A stretch of 64,000 bases of DNA from Dermacoccus abyssi (GTDB lineage: Bacteria; Actinomycetota; Actinomycetes; Actinomycetales; Dermatophilaceae): the NCBI RefSeq assembly GCF_003515945.1, contig NZ_QWLM01000005.1, forward strand, positions 62,001 to 126,000, in the 5' to 3' direction. Below the pieces are notes generated by a model that saw only the letters and a list, made by a program, of their open reading frames with translations, was not told the origin of the DNA and did not search any database. Positions 48,390 through 54,723 of this stretch are shown here, one piece after another. The translations under genes and the position numbers were made by a program. Position 1 is the stretch's first letter; every line of letters starts with the position of its first letter.

Positions 48390-50630
48390 TCAGGGGCGGT
48401 TCCGGCGGCCGAGTGCCGTGAGGTAGGCGCGACCCGAGGCAGGGACGAGGAGGGCCTTCACCCGCGCACCCCACGATGCTTCGTCCCGTGCAGCCCGGAC
48501 CACCCGGTCACACGCTGACGCCTGGGACCGGCCCGTCGTCGGCGCGTAGCGCGAGGCTTCCATACCTGAACACGCTCGCTCGAGGGCCTCACGCACCGTG
48601 GTGCCCGACTCCGGGTTGTCCCGGGTGAACGCCTCTGCGGTGGCTCGTGGCGACAAGCCCTCCGGCGTCGTGTAACCGAGATCGCGCAGCGACCAGAGCA
48701 TGGCGTGCCACGCTCCCTCGTCACGTTCGCGATCCGTCGATGCCGTACGGGTGACCTCCTGCCGCTTACGTCGACCCGCCAGGGGCAGGACCGACGCGAG
48801 CAGCGCGACCAGGGCAAGACCCCCCAGCACCGCGAGCACGTGGGCCCAAGGGAAGGAGTCCGAGTCGGGCTTGGCCGGCTGGGTCGTGCTCGACGAGGTG
48901 CTCGTCTCGCTCGACGGGCGCACGCTCGAGGTGGACGAGGACGTGCTCGTCGAGCTCGTGGGCGCACTCGAGGACGAGGACGCCGACGAGTCGCCGGTGG
49001 GGGTGTCCGGCGCGTAGGGCGGCGGCGCACCCGAACGCAGGCCGGGCGTCGGGTCGAAGCGCGTCCACCCCATACCGGGGAAGTAGACCTCCGCCCAGGC
49101 GTGGGCGTCCGCAGCTCGCACCTCGTACGTGCCGCTGCGCTCCGTGCCGGGCAGGAAGCCGATGGCCACACGCGCGGGCAGCCCCATCTGCCGCGCTCCC
49201 ATGACCATGGCCGTCGCGAACTGAGTGCAGTAGCCCCGTCGCGTCTCCAGGAAGTTCGACAGCGGATCGAGCTCGCGACCGTTCTCCGAACGGGTCGGGG
49301 CCAACCTGAGCGAGTACGTGAACGACGGGTCGGTACGCAGATAGCGCTGCAGCGCGACGGCCTGCTCGAACGGTGTTCCCGCGTCGGCGGCCCCGGAGGA
49401 CTGATTGAGCCGAGTGATGCGCTGCTTCGCCGCCTCCGGGAGTGTTGCGGTGTCGAGATCCTTCGCCGTGACACTGCCACCGACTCCCGCGCGCTCGTTG
49501 CTCGTGGGTCGTGCGGCCGCAGTGTACTCGCGGTAGAGCACCGAGTAGGCCGGCGCGGGCTGCGACAGGAACGGCACACCGTTGTTCGTGCCGACACGGA
49601 AGGTCGGGTTCGCGGAACCGAAGTTGGCCGCACGCAGCTGCGCAGGCGCCGCGACGAACGGCGGTCGCATGCCGTTGAGGGTCACGGACATGCGTTCCGT
49701 GCGCGCCGGCATCGAATCCTCGGCGCCGGGGTTCGGCAACTCGGTGTTGGGGCGGGCATCGGTGAACGGGCCCGACGACTCGGCGCGCCAGACGCCGTCA
49801 GCGTAGGAAGAGCTCGTCGTGGCACGCAACGGCGCAGGAGTGGTTGCCTGGGTCGTGTAGGTGAGCACGGGCGCGGCATTGCGAGAGTTCAGGCTCTTGC
49901 TGAGGTCGAGCGTCTCGGAGAAGTCGACCGAGTTGTTGACGCCCTGTGCTCCGCCCTCGGCGAGCGCGGGGGTGGCTCGCTGTGGCACTGAGGGGGCCAG
50001 GACGAGAGCCGTGAGTACGGCAACCGCCGTCATGGCGGCGAACACCGGCAGGGAGCGCATGAGGCCGGTGCGCAAGCTCGAGCCTTCGGCGAAGGACGCT
50101 GCCAGGACGACGAAGGCCCAGGCGATCGCCGCCGCGACGAAGTAGCGCGCGCGAAGGGTGTCACCGAGTGCGGTGGTGGCCAGGATGAAGGGCGCCGCCA
50201 CCGGAAGGACCGTGAGCATGGGCATACGTGCGGTGCCGCCCACGTAGTCGACGACGAGCGTGACGAGACCCGCGGCGAGAGCCAGCATGACGAGGACGCC
50301 GAGCATCGCCGGCAACGGAGCGACGGAGGTGTTCGCCGCTTCCTGGGCAGAGGCGGCCGTTGCCTTCACGGACGCCGCAGTGAGTGACCCTCCCTTGGCG
50401 ACGAAGACTCCCAGGGTGGCGACGGCGAGTGCGACGAGCTGTGCCGTCACGATGAAAGCCGGTGTGCGGTGTGTGAAGCGGCACACAGCGCCGACGAACC
50501 ACACGAGAGCGACGACGGCGAGTGCGGGCCCCACGAGGGCAGAGCTGCTCGTCAGTTCCACCAGCGGCCAACTCGCGGCCAGCGCCAGGAGCAGGAGGGC
50601 GACGTCGGAGGGGATTTGACGACTCTTCAT
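48390..50630 (-). CDS. TgpA-like transglutaminase membrane protein
   Basis: The 746-residue protein has about five to six N-terminal membrane helices (residues ~10-225) and an extracytoplasmic region with a transglutaminase-like domain. The triad is visible: Cys468 (RRGYCTQFA), His510 (DAHAWAEVY) and Asp526 (FDPTPG). A Ser/Thr-only linker of about 45 residues follows (SSASSSSSAPTSSTSTSSS region). Then come another membrane helix (about 605-625) and a cytoplasmic DUF4129-like end. The ATG overlaps the DUF58 stop by 4 bp, so it is the last gene of moxR-DUF58-tgpA. In Pseudomonas TgpA is essential. Its substrate is unknown, but a cell-envelope role is likely given the location. Confidence 0.88.
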   Translation of the reverse strand: MKSRQIPSDVALLLLALAASWPLVELTSSSALVGPALAVVALVWFVGAVCRFTHRTPAFIVTAQLVALAVATLGVFVAKGGSLTAASVKATAASAQEAANTSVAPLPAMLGVLVMLALAAGLVTLVVDYVGGTARMPMLTVLPVAAPFILATTALGDTLRARYFVAAAIAWAFVVLAASFAEGSSLRTGLMRSLPVFAAMTAVAVLTALVLAPSVPQRATPALAEGGAQGVNNSVDFSETLDLSKSLNSRNAAPVLTYTTQATTPAPLRATTSSSYADGVWRAESSGPFTDARPNTELPNPGAEDSMPARTERMSVTLNGMRPPFVAAPAQLRAANFGSANPTFRVGTNNGVPFLSQPAPAYSVLYREYTAAARPTSNERAGVGGSVTAKDLDTATLPEAAKQRITRLNQSSGAADAGTPFEQAVALQRYLRTDPSFTYSLRLAPTRSENGRELDPLSNFLETRRGYCTQFATAMVMGARQMGLPARVAIGFLPGTERSGTYEVRAADAHAWAEVYFPGMGWTRFDPTPGLRSGAPPPYAPDTPTGDSSASSSSSAPTSSTSTSSSTSSVRPSSETSTSSSTTQPAKPDSDSFPWAHVLAVLGGLALVALLASVLPLAGRRKRQEVTRTASTDRERDEGAWHAMLWSLRDLGYTTPEGLSPRATAEAFTRDNPESGTTVREALERACSGMEASRYAPTTGRSQASACDRVVRAARDEASWGARVKALLVPASGRAYLTALGRRNRP

Positions 50631-51751
50631 CGAAGATCACCTCCGGACATCGCGGGGTACAGGGACTCGGCGATGGAGTCGTAGGGGGAGATGGCGACGG
50701 CGTCCCAACCCAACCGGGTCAGTTCGTTCGCGCCGTCCTCCGCGCTCGCGCCGCCCACCCAGGCGAACGCCGGGGAGTGGTGTGGGGCCGGGGGGAAGTG
50801 ATCGGCGCTCGTGTGCAGGAAGAGCAAGGTGGGGCTCTCCTCGATGGTCAAACGGTCGGGCAGACTCTCACCGGCGCGAGCCAGGGCGTCGAGGATGTCG
50901 TCATGGTTGTCGTACTCGCGCTCGCCGACGGTCGCAAGGGTTGCGAGGTTGTGGTTCTCGAGCTCGGTGCATGCCGAGGCCGCTGCGCTGATCAGCCACT
51001 CCCACGGCTCGTTGGTACCGGGTCGTGGCACGTTGCCGAGCACGACCACATGGATGCGGGGCTGGGCCGGCGGGTCGAACTGACGCACCATGAGCTCGCC
51101 CCGGTGCGCCGTGGCGGGCCAGTGCACGGTGCGCAGGTCGTCGCCCTGGACGTACTCGCGGATGCTGGCACCGGGTCGCCCGGCGTGGGTCGCGTGAGCG
51201 GAGATGACGGTGTCGTCGCCGTCACCCTGAGCGACGGTTTGCGGCGTCTCGAGACTCACCGTGTGGGCGCGCACGAGCCAGGTCGAGGCACGGCCCTGCT
51301 CGAGCGACGTCTCGAAGAGGCCGAAGGGATCGGACGCGACGAGTCGCGCCGGTCCACTCGTGAAGGAGCCACGGTGACGTGCGGTGACGTCGTAGGCCGC
51401 CCGACCCCCTTGAACCTGCGAAAGGGGCCACCTCGCCACGCCGTGGCGGGTGAACGTGTGTGGCTCCTCGAGCGTCGTCTCGATCCATCCCGCACGCCGG
51501 GCCTTCACGCCGAGCGTGATCTGCCCCTCGTCACCGACGCTGAGGCGCTCCGGGGGGCCGTGACGGGTCACGTCGACCCGACCGGTCCGAGCGGCGACGG
51601 CGATGAGGAAGGCCAGCAGCGCCAGCACCAGGACGAAGATGCCTGCACGCACCACATCGGTGAAGCCTGAGGCCGCCCCCACGACGACGAGGAGTGCCCC
51701 CGCCACGAGGACGAGCAAACCTCGGCGGGTGGGGCGCGGCAGCGACTTCAC
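50627..51751 (-). CDS. DUF58 family protein
   Basis: The 374-residue protein has two membrane helices near the N-terminus (about 10-50, LLVLVAGALLVVVGAASGF and AGIFVLVLALLAFLIAV). The DUF58 signature follows at about 205-235 (REYVQGDDLRTVHWPATAHR), at the edge of a von Willebrand A-like fold. DUF58 proteins usually act with MoxR ATPases. It overlaps moxR (stop 51748) and tgpA (start 50630) by 4 bp each, a strong sign of one coupled operon. Confidence 0.88.
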   Translation of the reverse strand: MKSLPRPTRRGLLVLVAGALLVVVGAASGFTDVVRAGIFVLVLALLAFLIAVAARTGRVDVTRHGPPERLSVGDEGQITLGVKARRAGWIETTLEEPHTFTRHGVARWPLSQVQGGRAAYDVTARHRGSFTSGPARLVASDPFGLFETSLEQGRASTWLVRAHTVSLETPQTVAQGDGDDTVISAHATHAGRPGASIREYVQGDDLRTVHWPATAHRGELMVRQFDPPAQPRIHVVVLGNVPRPGTNEPWEWLISAAASACTELENHNLATLATVGEREYDNHDDILDALARAGESLPDRLTIEESPTLLFLHTSADHFPPAPHHSPAFAWVGGASAEDGANELTRLGWDAVAISPYDSIAESLYPAMSGGDLR

Positions 51752-52749
51752 CGGGAGGCGCGCTGGGTCGGCACGCGCACGTCGGCGATGACGTCGGCGA
51801 CGACCTCGCTCGCGCTGAGGTCGTTGCGGCCGCGGCGCAGAAGCACGCGGTGGCCGAGCACGGCCGGTGCCATCGCGGTGACGTCTTCGGGGATGACGTG
51901 GTCGCGGCCGGCGAGTGCGGCGTGGGCGCGCGCGGCGCGCAGCAGCTGCAGGGACGCACGCGGGCTGGCGCCGAGGCGGACGCTTGGGTGCTCGCGCGTG
52001 GCGGAGACGACATCGACGACGTACTGCCGCAGTGCTTCACTCGTGTGAAGACGGGAGATCGCACCCACGCAGGCGGCGATCTCGGCGGCGCTCGTCACCG
52101 GACGCAGAACGCTGAGGGGATCGGTGACACCGTGGTGCTCGAGCATGTCGAACTCGGCTCGGGGCGAGGGGTAGCCCATGCTCACCTGCGCCATGAACCG
52201 GTCTCGCTGTGCCTCGGGCAGCGGGAAGGTTCCGTCCATCTCGACGGGGTTCTGCGTGGCGACGACCATGAACGGGTCGGGCAGCGCACGCGTCGTGCCG
52301 TCGATCGTCACTTGGTGTTCTTCCATGGCCTCGAGCAGCGCAGCCTGCGTCTTGGGGGACGCGCGGTTGATCTCGTCGCCGATGACCACGTTGGCGAAGA
52401 CGGCGCCGGGACGGAAACGGAACTCGCCGCTCGTCTGGTCGTAGATCGTCACGCCGGTGATGTCGCTCGGAAGCAGGTCGGGCGTGAACTGGATGCGGCG
52501 CAAGGATGCGTCGACAGAACGGGCCAGGGCTTTGGCCAGCACCGTCTTGCCGACGCCGGGCACGTCCTCGACAAGCAGGTGCCCGCCGGCGAAGAGCACC
52601 GTCGTGGCCACCCGGACGACGTCCGGCTTGCCCTCGATGACCTGCTCGACGTTGCGTCGCACAGCGTCAGCCGTCGCGATGACGTCGACGCCCGAGCGGC
52701 GGCTGGAAGCGGGGGCGGGGTAGCCGTGATCGCGTGACGAGGTGTCCAT
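51748..52749 (-). CDS. MoxR-family AAA+ ATPase
   Basis: The 333-residue AAA+ ATPase has Walker A GVGKT (65-69, in EDVPGVGKTVLAKA). Walker B/sensor regions are VVIGDEINRASPKTQAALLEAM and QNPVEMDGTFPLPEAQRDRF, all typical of MoxR. MoxR proteins act as chaperone-like motors with VWA or DUF58 partners, here the next gene. The start at 52749 (MDTSSRD) is chosen over a frame reaching 53262, because the extra sequence is low in similarity and runs across the regulatory region. Many TGGRG boxes lie 73-131 bp upstream and face this gene. Confidence 0.92.
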   Translation of the reverse strand: MDTSSRDHGYPAPASSRRSGVDVIATADAVRRNVEQVIEGKPDVVRVATTVLFAGGHLLVEDVPGVGKTVLAKALARSVDASLRRIQFTPDLLPSDITGVTIYDQTSGEFRFRPGAVFANVVIGDEINRASPKTQAALLEAMEEHQVTIDGTTRALPDPFMVVATQNPVEMDGTFPLPEAQRDRFMAQVSMGYPSPRAEFDMLEHHGVTDPLSVLRPVTSAAEIAACVGAISRLHTSEALRQYVVDVVSATREHPSVRLGASPRASLQLLRAARAHAALAGRDHVIPEDVTAMAPAVLGHRVLLRRGRNDLSASEVVADVIADVRVPTQRASR

Positions 52750-52821
52750 ACGAACCGATCTTGCCAAATACGGCGGCCCCCTGTCCTGCACAGGCACGTG
52801 GGGATGGTCGAAGGTGTGCCT

Positions 52822-52880
52822 TCCCACGCCGCTCCACCCTGCTCCACCCCGTCCTCCACCGCGCTCCCCACTTCGCCCCA
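52822..52880 (-). promoter_or_regulatory. Six TGGRG boxes on the minus strand, candidate MraZ operator for moxR
   Basis: Read on the minus strand the boxes are TGGGG at 52876-52880, TGGGG at 52866-52870, TGGAG at 52854-52858, TGGAG at 52842-52846, TGGAG at 52832-52836 and TGGGA at 52822-52826. Start-to-start distances are 10, 12, 12, 10 and 10 bp. The last three copy the arrangement at mraZ (5-bp boxes, 5-bp spacers). They lie upstream of moxR and point toward it. Confidence 0.6.
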
Positions 52881-52927
52881 CGAGGCGTGAGTCCGCTGTG
52901 GAGCGCGCTTCGTCCTTGGTGGAATAT

Positions 52928-52941
52928 CGCGGAATTCCGCG
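52928..52941. promoter_or_regulatory. Perfect 14-bp palindrome in the moxR/mraZ gap
   Basis: CGCGGAATTCCGCG equals its own reverse complement. It lies near the middle of the divergent region, away from the TGGRG boxes. It may bind a dimeric regulator; none can be named. Confidence 0.4.
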
Positions 52942-52965
52942 GAAGTCCCTGCGGTCCATTCGCCG

Positions 52966-52980
52966 TGGAGCGTCGTGGGG
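52966..52980 (+). promoter_or_regulatory. Pair of TGGRG boxes (plus strand)
   Basis: TGGAG (52966-52970) and TGGGG (52976-52980) are separated by 5 bp, the MraZ spacing. They face mraZ but lie about 140 bp upstream of the promoter-proximal triple. Confidence 0.45.
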
Positions 52981-53012
52981 CAAGCTTCTGCCGGGTCTGG
53001 CGCACGATTCTC

Positions 53013-53027
53013 CTCCACCGCACTCCA
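53013..53027 (-). promoter_or_regulatory. Pair of TGGRG boxes (minus strand)
   Basis: Two TGGAG boxes on the minus strand (plus-strand ctcca at 53013-53017 and 53023-53027) are 10 bp apart start to start, with a 5-bp spacer. Confidence 0.45.
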
Positions 53028-53102
53028 CTCGTGAATTTCCTTGCAACCACTGGGGCGCTTCACCAACTCGCCGGTCGATTCCGGGCAAGGGGGGAGACTT
53101 TG

Positions 53103-53127
53103 TGGGGTGAAGTGGAGTAGAGTGGGG
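53103..53127 (+). promoter_or_regulatory. MraZ operator triple overlapping the mraZ promoter
   Basis: TGGGG (53103-53107), TGGAG (53113-53117) and TGGGG (53123-53127) have exact 5-bp spacers. This is the repeat layout bound by MraZ in E. coli (TGGGN boxes) and related forms elsewhere. A TAGAGT hexamer at 53118-53123 fits a -10, so bound MraZ would block the promoter. The mraZ start is 41 bp downstream. Confidence 0.78.
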
Positions 53128-53167
53128 GACATCGGATCGACGTGTCGGTGACGGGAGGTGCCCAGCC

Positions 53168-53599
53168 GTGTTTCTGGGTACCCATTCGCCTCGACTCGAC
53201 GACAAGGGCCGCATGTTCCTTCCGGCGAAGTTCCGCGAACGTCTCGCCGGCGGGCTGGTCATGACTCGAGGACAGGAACGCTGCCTCTACGTCTTTCCGA
53301 TGGCCGAGTTCGAGCGCATCGCCACGGCGATGAACACGACGCCTGTCACCTCGCGTGCGGTGCGTGATTACCAGCGCGTCCTGCTCTCGGGGGCCTCCGA
53401 CGAGATCCCTGACAAGCAAGGACGCGTGACGATCCCGCAGCTGCTTCGTGACTACGCAGGTCTGTCGAAGGAATGCACGGTGATCGGTGCGGGTAACCGC
53501 ATCGAGATCTGGGACACGCAGGCGTGGAACGACTACCTCGCCGGCGCGGAACAGCCGTTCGCCGACCAGGCGGAAGAGGTCGTTCCGGGGTTGCTGTAG
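53168..53599 (+). CDS. mraZ: Transcriptional regulator MraZ
   Basis: MraZ is a ring-forming AbrB-fold DNA-binding protein that represses the dcw operon starting with its own gene. The 143-residue protein has two SpoVT/AbrB half-domains with the motifs [16 protein letters not shown] (about 11-26) and [15 protein letters not shown] (about 81-95). These carry the DNA-contacting arginines. GTG 53168 follows GGGAGG with good spacing. It is the first gene of the dcw cluster. The boxes at 53103-53127 are its expected target. Confidence 0.96.
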
Positions 53600-53751
53600 C
53601 CCTCTGCGTCCAGGTCTCCGGCCGCTGCTTTCCGGCACACCTTCCCCGGTGCCGGAGCGCAGCGGCGGGGGCCCTGGACGCAGAGTCGCAGCGGCCCGAC
53701 CACCACGCACGAGGACCGACGTCCGACGACCCGAGCACTGAGGGAGTGAAC

Positions 53752-54723
53752 ATGCGAGACGAGTTCGCGCCCGCCGCCGATCGTCACGTTCCCGTCATGC
53801 TCGCCGAGATTCTCGACGTTCTCGCCCCGGCCCTCGAGCGTCCGGGAGCTCTGTACGTCGACGGCACGCTCGGGATGGGTGGCCACGCCGAAGCCGTCCT
53901 CGAACGCTTCCCCGAGGCAAGCGTCGTCGGAATCGACCGTGACGCGCAGGCCCTTGAACTCGCCGGCGAGCGTCTGGCTCGCTTCGGTGAGCGCTTCCGC
54001 GGCGTTCACGCCGTCAACACGGAGCTCGCAGACGTCCTCGACGGGCCGGCCGACGCGATGCTCTTCGACCTCGGCGTCTCCAGTTTCCAGCTCGACGAAC
54101 TCGAGCGAGGCTTCTCCTACCGCGCTGACGCGCCCCTCGACATGAGGATGGACCAGTCGAGTGCGGGGCAGACGGCGGCCGACGTCCTCAACACCTACTC
54201 GCAGGACGAGCTCGAGCGCATCCTGCGCGTCTACGGCGAGGAACGCTATGCGCGCAAGATCGCTCACGCCGTCGTCAAGGAACGGGAGAAGCAGGCGTGG
54301 ACCACCTCCGCGCGGCTCGTCGAGATGCTCCGCTCCGTCATTCCGTCTGCCTCGCAGCGTCAGAGCGGTCACCCCGCCAAGCGCACCTTCCAGGCTTTGC
54401 GCATCGAGGTCAACGACGAACTGCGTGGCTGGGAGAACACGGTCGACACCGCGCTCGACACCCTCGCCGTCGACGGTCGACTCGCCGTCCTGTCGTTCCA
54501 CTCCCTCGAAGACCGCATCACCAAGCAGGCCTTCGCTCGGGCGTGCCGTTCCACCGCACCGGCAGGGCTTCCGGTGGAGCTGCCCGAGCACCTTCCCGAG
54601 TTCGAGCTGCTCCTGCGTGGCGCCTCGACTCCCTCGGCAACCGAACTGGAGCACAACTCGCGTTCCGCCTCGGTGAAACTCCGTGCCATCCGTCGTACCC
54701 GACCGAAAGGAAGCCAGTCATGA
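53752..54723 (+). CDS. rsmH: 16S rRNA (cytosine1402-N4)-methyltransferase RsmH
   Basis: RsmH (MraW) methylates N4 of C1402 in the 16S decoding site. The 323-residue protein contains HVPVML near the start and the SAM-binding GTLGMGGHAEAVLE (about 38-50). It also has FDLGVSSFQLDELERGFSYR (in part, about 103-118) and the C-terminal SFHSLEDRITKQAF, all family-typical. The ATG at 53752 is supported by AGGGAG about 7 nt upstream. A 152-bp gap separates it from mraZ. Its stop overlaps the ftsL start in ATGA. Confidence 0.96.
   Translation: MRDEFAPAADRHVPVMLAEILDVLAPALERPGALYVDGTLGMGGHAEAVLERFPEASVVGIDRDAQALELAGERLARFGERFRGVHAVNTELADVLDGPADAMLFDLGVSSFQLDELERGFSYRADAPLDMRMDQSSAGQTAADVLNTYSQDELERILRVYGEERYARKIAHAVVKEREKQAWTTSARLVEMLRSVIPSASQRQSGHPAKRTFQALRIEVNDELRGWENTVDTALDTLAVDGRLAVLSFHSLEDRITKQAFARACRSTAPAGLPVELPEHLPEFELLLRGASTPSATELEHNSRSASVKLRAIRRTRPKGSQS

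Follow-up and report, generated by a model that had tools for sequence, protein, structure and literature searches.

A candidate multi-part MraZ operator with distal inverted boxes upstream of mraZ in Dermacoccus abyssi and other Actinomycetes

The gap between moxR and mraZ in Dermacoccus abyssi contains, next to the mraZ start, a direct-repeat array that resembles a MraZ operator in sequence (O1), for which MraZ is the predicted ligand, and, further upstream, a pair (O2) and an array (O3) of similar boxes in inverted orientation. Comparable inverted pairs recur upstream of mraZ in many Actinomycetes, and their position follows the mraZ promoter. Judging from sequence, we give roughly even weight to the reading that these elements form one multi-part MraZ operator, in which MraZ would control its own promoter and the dcw operon through O1 together with distal inverted sites that are probably bridged to it.

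The mraZ locus and its boxes

The window is a 64,000-nt stretch of contig NZ_QWLM01000005.1 (positions 62,001-126,000) from the D. abyssi assembly GCF_003515945.1 (3.16 Mb, 55 contigs). The regulator gene, mraZ (53168..53599, plus strand, GTG start), stands at the head of the division operon in many bacteria. Its product in the window matches PF02381 in two stretches (7.6e-40), has a DXXXR-type motif in each half (DDKGR and DKQGR) and aligns over residues 1-129 to the solved MraZ chains 1n0e and 9qlr; an intact two-domain mraZ adjoins the sites, and PF02381 is matched at a single place in the assembly. By Pfam, mraZ is followed rightward by rsmH (mraW; 53752..54723, plus strand, PF01795 1.5e-105, the start being a reading within the open frame 53524-54723) and a penicillin-binding transpeptidase gene, which we read as ftsI by position. 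The divergent operon runs leftward and comprises moxR (51748..52749, minus strand, AAA_3 2.5e-63), a DUF58 gene (50627..51751, minus strand, PF01882 1.1e-05) and a tgpA-like transglutaminase gene (48390..50630, minus strand, TgpA_N 2.3e-29, Transglut_core 5.9e-24). The moxR start codon was chosen inside a longer frame that stays open through the entire regulatory gap (51748-53262, minus strand, 504 aa), so that automatic annotation could wrongly stretch moxR across the operators. A match to the Rfam mraW RNA (RF01746) at 53596-53695 on the plus strand scores 63.2 bits (gathering score 50) and overlaps the 3' end of mraZ and the gap to rsmH; of 15 mraZ loci searched, 11 (L161, L172-L175, L177, L178, L187-L189 and L191) have a match of this family at gathering score. 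An Rfam RNA covering the array itself was considered and rejected, the search returning just a sub-threshold microRNA match.

The 417 bp that separate the start of moxR (52749) from that of mraZ (53168) hold 15 TGGRG boxes, TGGGA excluded, 14 of them in the form GTGGRG. The initial annotation had described about 13 MraZ-type boxes here; every box it named is present, the number is 13 when its TGGGA box is counted, and three further plus-strand TGGRG boxes (52799, 52899 and 53051) were absent from its list. O1 consists of three GTGGRG boxes spaced exactly 10 bp apart (53102..53127, plus strand; TGGRG starts at 53103, 53113 and 53123). O2 is an inverted GTGGAG pair 10 bp apart (53013..53028, minus strand; TGGRG at 53013-53017 and 53023-53027), at a distance of 89 bp from the middle box of O1 and at a similar position in relatives. 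O3 is an inverted array of six boxes, one of them GTGGGA (52822..52881, minus strand), with minus boxes starting at 52832, 52842, 52854, 52866 and 52876 and TCCCA (TGGGA on the other strand) at 52822, giving steps of 10, 10, 12, 12 and 10 bp. An extra plus-strand pair 10 bp apart (52965..52980; TGGRG starts at 52966 and 52976) completes the paired boxes, and two partnerless plus-strand boxes, GTGGGG at 52798..52803 and GTGGAG at 52898..52903, may be chance. The plus pair at 52966-52980 and the minus pair at 53013-53027 are both where the initial annotation put them; the former is absent from a same-genus relative. Two details need correction: the minus-strand triple at 52822-52846, described as identical to that at mraZ, has the 10-bp spacing of O1 and a different sequence, and the six-box minus cluster includes two 12-bp steps.

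Chance and base composition are ruled out as the origin of the boxes. None of 3000 dinucleotide shuffles of 52751-53167, a check proposed with the initial annotation, was as high as the real gap in TGGRG boxes (15 vs a shuffle mean of 3.13) or in ten-bp pairs (6 vs 0.01), and the same was true of each count, 12 boxes and 4 pairs, when the mraZ-proximal triple was left out (52751-53095; 0/3000). The looser E. coli-like TGGGN is not unusual in the same gap, either as 9 boxes (380 of 3000 shuffles as high) or as one ten-bp pair (131 of 3000); the non-chance signal resides in TGGRG/GTGGRG rather than in TGGGN. Elsewhere in the 64-kb window we found no same-strand ten-bp TGGRG pairs besides these six. 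In the assembly, GTGGRGN4GTGGRG has six matches, all in this gap, vs one for the reversed-pattern control. Searched with up to three mismatches, the triple pattern finds O1 as the sole perfect match and an O3 triple as the next, with one mismatch; its total of 28 matches vs 32 for the control means that looser matches elsewhere carry no meaning. Among other relatives, the pair pattern is genome-wide no commoner than its reversed control in 25 of 33, and the concentration is therefore a property of this assembly and not general.

The middle box of O1 directly precedes TAGAGT (53118-53123), a -10-like hexamer. Since a sigma-70 promoter scan of 52700-53200 returned nothing exceeding its threshold, the reading of TAGAGT as a -10 rests on comparison with relatives. 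Among 171 Actinomycetes mraZ loci, 143 have a perfect plus-strand pair at -140 to -20 of mraZ, and their logo is GTGGGGnAAAGTGGAGTA followed by a third box, where the choice of loci fixes the two boxes but leaves AAA, TA and the third box free. Many relatives have TTGAC immediately 5' of this logo, so that their first boxes fall in the stretch from the -35 to the -10 and their third box overlaps the -10. A triple set around TAGAGT is as expected for an autorepressor. With direct GTG-core repeats stepped by 10 bp, the published hallmark of MraZ sites, close to the mraZ promoter, and MraZ encoded by the adjoining gene, the description of the boxes as MraZ-type stands, and O1 qualifies as a MraZ operator at the sequence level.

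Distal inverted pairs in relatives

MraZ searches were positive in 56 of 58 near relatives, from which 30 loci were kept, and in 220 of 246 genomes of the class. To these 30 and to 80 named loci, the best of 368, another 79 were added by hand, 8 of them near relatives that were already represented with shorter flanks or already on the list of near relatives. Removal of 18 loci with identical upstream sequence or with <300 bp upstream reduced the resulting 189 loci to 171, a set weighted to the nearest families and Actinomadura. Pooling the first 99 loci gave three zones in which strands are seldom mixed, one of plus boxes (roughly -110 to -50) and two of minus boxes (roughly -180 to -140 and -330 to -250). 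A perfect minus pair at -420 to -110 of mraZ is present in 95 of the 171 loci, vs 0.08 loci on average and never more than 1 over 100 rounds of shuffling, so that the multi-site layout, here and in those 95 loci, extends beyond one promoter-proximal cluster and recurs in relatives, in support of the initial annotation. Plus pairs occur in the same interval in 7 loci (shuffle mean 0.04) and at -420 to -150 in 2 of 171. Consecutive same-strand steps in the distal zone are exactly 10 bp in 137 cases, with a second peak at 12-13 bp, and 14 of 25 pair-to-pair distances of up to 60 bp are 22-24 bp, which makes the longer arrays mostly strings of pairs, unlike the 10-bp ladder of O1. In the same-genus relative (L191) the minus boxes again number six, are spaced by 10, 13, 10, 13 and 10 bp and align with the O3 of the window in part only; such step differences between species of one genus hint at turnover with the boxes kept.

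The distal boxes might instead be decoys that titrate MraZ and so set the threshold of autorepression. Their large number and the O3 spacing that differs between the two same-genus species would suit this; decoys, however, need no constant orientation, and the strands are split as 95 loci with minus pairs (-420 to -110) against 2 with plus pairs (-420 to -150), nor do they need a preferred distance or 10-bp pairing. We regard decoys as quite improbable.

A perfect distal pair is absent from 76 of the 171 loci, comprising 54 of the 127 moxR-adjacent loci (including L143-L148) and 22 of the 44 others (including the small-genome loci L154-L157). Outside the class, in a set of 29 loci from 59 genomes with a match, 3 of which actually lie within the class, a search with a looser box (GTGGR) found a minus pair in 1 of 26 loci and a plus pair in 12 of 26. 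Distal pairs are thus not generally needed for MraZ function.

Twenty-six of the 246 class genomes have no MraZ match, and 18 of the 20 listed belong to one genus of large genomes (g74), which we take to be Streptomyces. In the eight tested (G072, G104, G129, G148, G168, G177, G203 and G212; loci L198-L205), moxR is divergent from rsmH across gaps of about 1.0-1.2 kb that hold 0-5 single boxes, and ten-bp pairs are missing from all eight gaps; the loss of MraZ in this genus counts as one evolutionary event, not eight. The missing pairs are indirect support for the predicted binding of MraZ to the pairs elsewhere. They also weigh against a regulator other than MraZ at the distal boxes, as does the core sequence and 10-bp step that these boxes share with O1. 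Such a regulator, which we consider highly improbable, could draw on the element CTGACCTGCG beside O2, where some other factor may act, and on MtrA, which binds the mraZ promoter in Dietzia according to an excerpt of PMC9602371.

The CTGACCTGCG element, followed by N, three A/T and YG, lies near O2 in relatives such as L023, L032, L050 and L075 and was not seen at O2 in the genus of the window. Allowing up to one mismatch, CTGACCTGC occurs on the plus strand upstream of mraZ in 99 of 171 loci, vs 8-11 for three controls, with some matches away from O2, including that of the window at -387. A longer form of the CTGACCTGCG pattern gives 58 matches in 19 genomes vs 1 for its control. Among 14 stretches inspected, several matches lie behind tRNA genes, in an apparent terminator hairpin; a tRNA reached the gathering score in 3 of 5 stretches tested.

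Spacing and the promoter served

Distances were measured from the -10-proximal O1 box, defined by the TA that follows it and located in 164 of the 171 loci; the box itself sits anywhere between -136 and -44 relative to the start codon. In 125 of the anchored loci a distal minus pair reaches 11 or 12 of the 12 possible matches, and the nearest such pair is 75-79 bp away in 70 of them, the remainder being at 66-67 bp (8 loci), 87-89 (7), 96-101 (9), 110 (1), 126-152 (7) or >160 bp (23). Pairs beyond 160 bp are found in 85 loci, of which 62 have both near and far kinds. With the 75-79 cluster left out and one value per lineage up to 160 bp, 21 hand-separated lineages cluster at the helical phase of 77.4 bp (p = 2e-5 at a fixed 10.5 bp; p = 0.0003 with the period free between 10 and 11 bp), and 15 distinct distance values give p = 0.0015 and p = 0.027, respectively, all figures from a comparison in which lineage independence was judged by hand from genus labels and the 160-bp limit and lineages were chosen after the data had been seen. 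The best period for distances up to 112 bp is 10.7. The phase argument is weakened because distances could also have moved by the array's own steps of 10, 12-13 and 22-24 bp, which are near helical multiples. Distinct values of all nearest distances have no outstanding single period (R of 0.30 at 10.5 and 0.36 at 11.5, from an earlier anchor possibly off by 10 bp), and O3 distances >160 bp have no clear single period.

Preferred and possibly phased spacing of O2 from the -10 region would also be compatible with activation, in which MraZ at O2 activates PmraZ from about 90 bp upstream and O1 represses at higher concentration, the spacing serving to present the right face of the helix to RNA polymerase with no loop. 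An excerpt of PMC8475190 describes more FtsZ accompanying MraZ overexpression in Mycoplasma gallisepticum, and the conserved CTGACCTGCG stands near O2 in many loci. The same excerpt gives MraZ a repressor role in both E. coli and Mycoplasma genitalium; O3 is, moreover, too distant for simple contact with RNA polymerase, and activation from O2 would not require consistent inversion. Activation from O2 is accordingly unlikely in our estimation.

The initial annotation had proposed that the layout switches the dcw operon and the moxR-DUF58-tgpA operon together. As a rival to the multi-part mraZ operator, this would make O3 and O2 the operator of the divergent moxR operon, with MraZ co-regulating both. 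In its favor, 127 of the 171 loci have a divergent moxR no more than 800 bp away, O3 in the window sits about 73-132 bp from the moxR start, and a leftward TGGAGCACAAT near -290, which 7 of the 12 Actinomadura loci in an alignment have in common, resembles a box with a -10. Against it, where moxR lies no more than 800 bp away, the distance to the promoter box is unrelated to the distance to moxR for both O2 (slope -0.001 +- 0.014, n=84) and O3 (slope -0.024 +- 0.035, n=67). The standard deviation of O2 position is 10.5 relative to the mraZ promoter box vs 82.8 relative to moxR (n=84) and that of O3 is 18.9 vs 71.3 (n=67); neither holds a fixed position relative to moxR. As leader length varies, O2 shifts with the -10-proximal box (slope 0.88 +- 0.13, r 0.55, n=102). 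Minus pairs occur in 22 of 44 loci with moxR more than 800 bp off or not found in the flank, vs 73 of 127 with moxR within 800 bp, which leaves 54 of the 127 moxR-adjacent loci without a perfect pair. Twenty loci have a co-directional DUF3040 gene within about 1.1 kb upstream, and 13 of these have a perfect minus pair. The DUF3040 gene ends 311 bp before mraZ in L172, 291 in L175, 243 in L187 and 305 in L189, all of which have distal pairs, leaving little space for a divergent gene. TAnnnT, built in at O1 by anchoring on TA, follows the boxes at a frequency of 0.01 in 105 O2 rows and 0.00 in 112 O3 rows (raw frequencies); being almost absent there, it makes the distal sites look unlike promoter-overlapping operators.

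By these results the distal sites go with the mraZ promoter and not with moxR. Joint control of moxR is rejected as the cause of their conservation, given that the pairs keep their distance to the mraZ promoter and occur without moxR, and the proposed joint switching is not supported as the reason for the layout. We judge a moxR operator at O3 and O2 improbable; a lineage-specific effect on moxR is possible. The ATTGTGCTCCA element (the leftward TGGAGCACAAT) lies at about -290 of mraZ in L095, L097, L099, L102, L103, L104 and L108. DUF3040 replaces divergent moxR upstream in L120, L123-L127, L154-L156, L161, L172-L178 and L187-L189; a Pfam search of L173, L175 and L187 confirmed DUF3040 in all three, and RDD was found in L162.

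Proposed mechanism and known MraZ systems

In the multi-part operator that we favor, MraZ on O1, which lies over the core promoter, would block RNA polymerase, as its position and MraZ biology elsewhere suggest. O2 and O3 would be distal inverted MraZ sites built of 10-bp pairs, the longer arrays adding pairs about 23 bp on, and could be bound by further MraZ rings or by other faces of one assembly. Protein-protein contact would bridge O2 to O1 over about 7-9 helical turns and O3 over about 17-24, and this bridging would tighten and sharpen mraZ autorepression. Inverted distal pairs at helix-compatible distances fit several MraZ rings, possibly with a loop. As a single Cn ring wrapped by DNA would want boxes in the same direction, inverted sites favor two rings, and the geometry suggests that these are related by a two-fold axis. 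A more specific and clearly more tentative proposal is that, in Actinomycetes, rings on the distal pairs stack two-fold on the ring at the promoter triple and close short, phased loops, leaving the division operon governed by a loop bridged from ring to ring. If true, MraZ would be ring-shaped so that it can hold several segments of DNA together. Recurring inverted sites tied to the mraZ promoter offer an immediate test for DNA bridging by MraZ, and they supply a rule for locating MraZ sites in Actinobacteria: 10-bp pairs, arrays at about 23 bp and a first pair often 75-79 bp off the core box.

The MraZ operator of E. coli, as reportedly described by Eraso et al. in 2014, consists of direct repeats at a 10-bp step. 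Excerpts of PMC7761207 and PMC8475190 place the repeats of the E. coli dcw operon upstream of mraZ, where they serve autorepression; they describe one promoter-proximal repeat region, to which Dermacoccus adds inverted distal pairs and arrays. In Burkholderia cenocepacia the MraZ site, bound in EMSA, comprises four 7-nt repeats with 3-nt spacers in the dcw promoter and was sought with a conserved GTG motif; of two overlapping intergenic probes, just the repeat-bearing BS2 was bound, and the excerpt describes no second site, in contrast to the candidate distal sites here (PMC7761207). The Mollicutes site, (AAAGTGKN3)3 (Fisunov et al., cited in PMC5282649), resembles O1 in its AAAGTGG core and exact 10-bp step; it has three direct repeats, and the excerpt of PMC5282649 mentions no distal inverted array, unlike the present locus. 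Neither distal inverted MraZ sites nor MraZ looping turned up in the open-licence PMC literature searched, which included excerpts of PMC9602371, PMC8475190, PMC5138195, PMC7761207 and PMC5282649. Against that literature, what is new is the distal inverted part, added to a known kind of promoter-proximal MraZ operator.

Among looping repressors, LacI and GalR combine a main operator at the promoter with auxiliary operators at helix-compatible distances. The mraZ arrangement resembles theirs in having a main operator and distal copies with the same core, with looping the predicted counterpart here. It differs from both in its ring-forming AbrB-fold protein, its 10-bp direct-repeat contacts and its arrays of inverted pairs.
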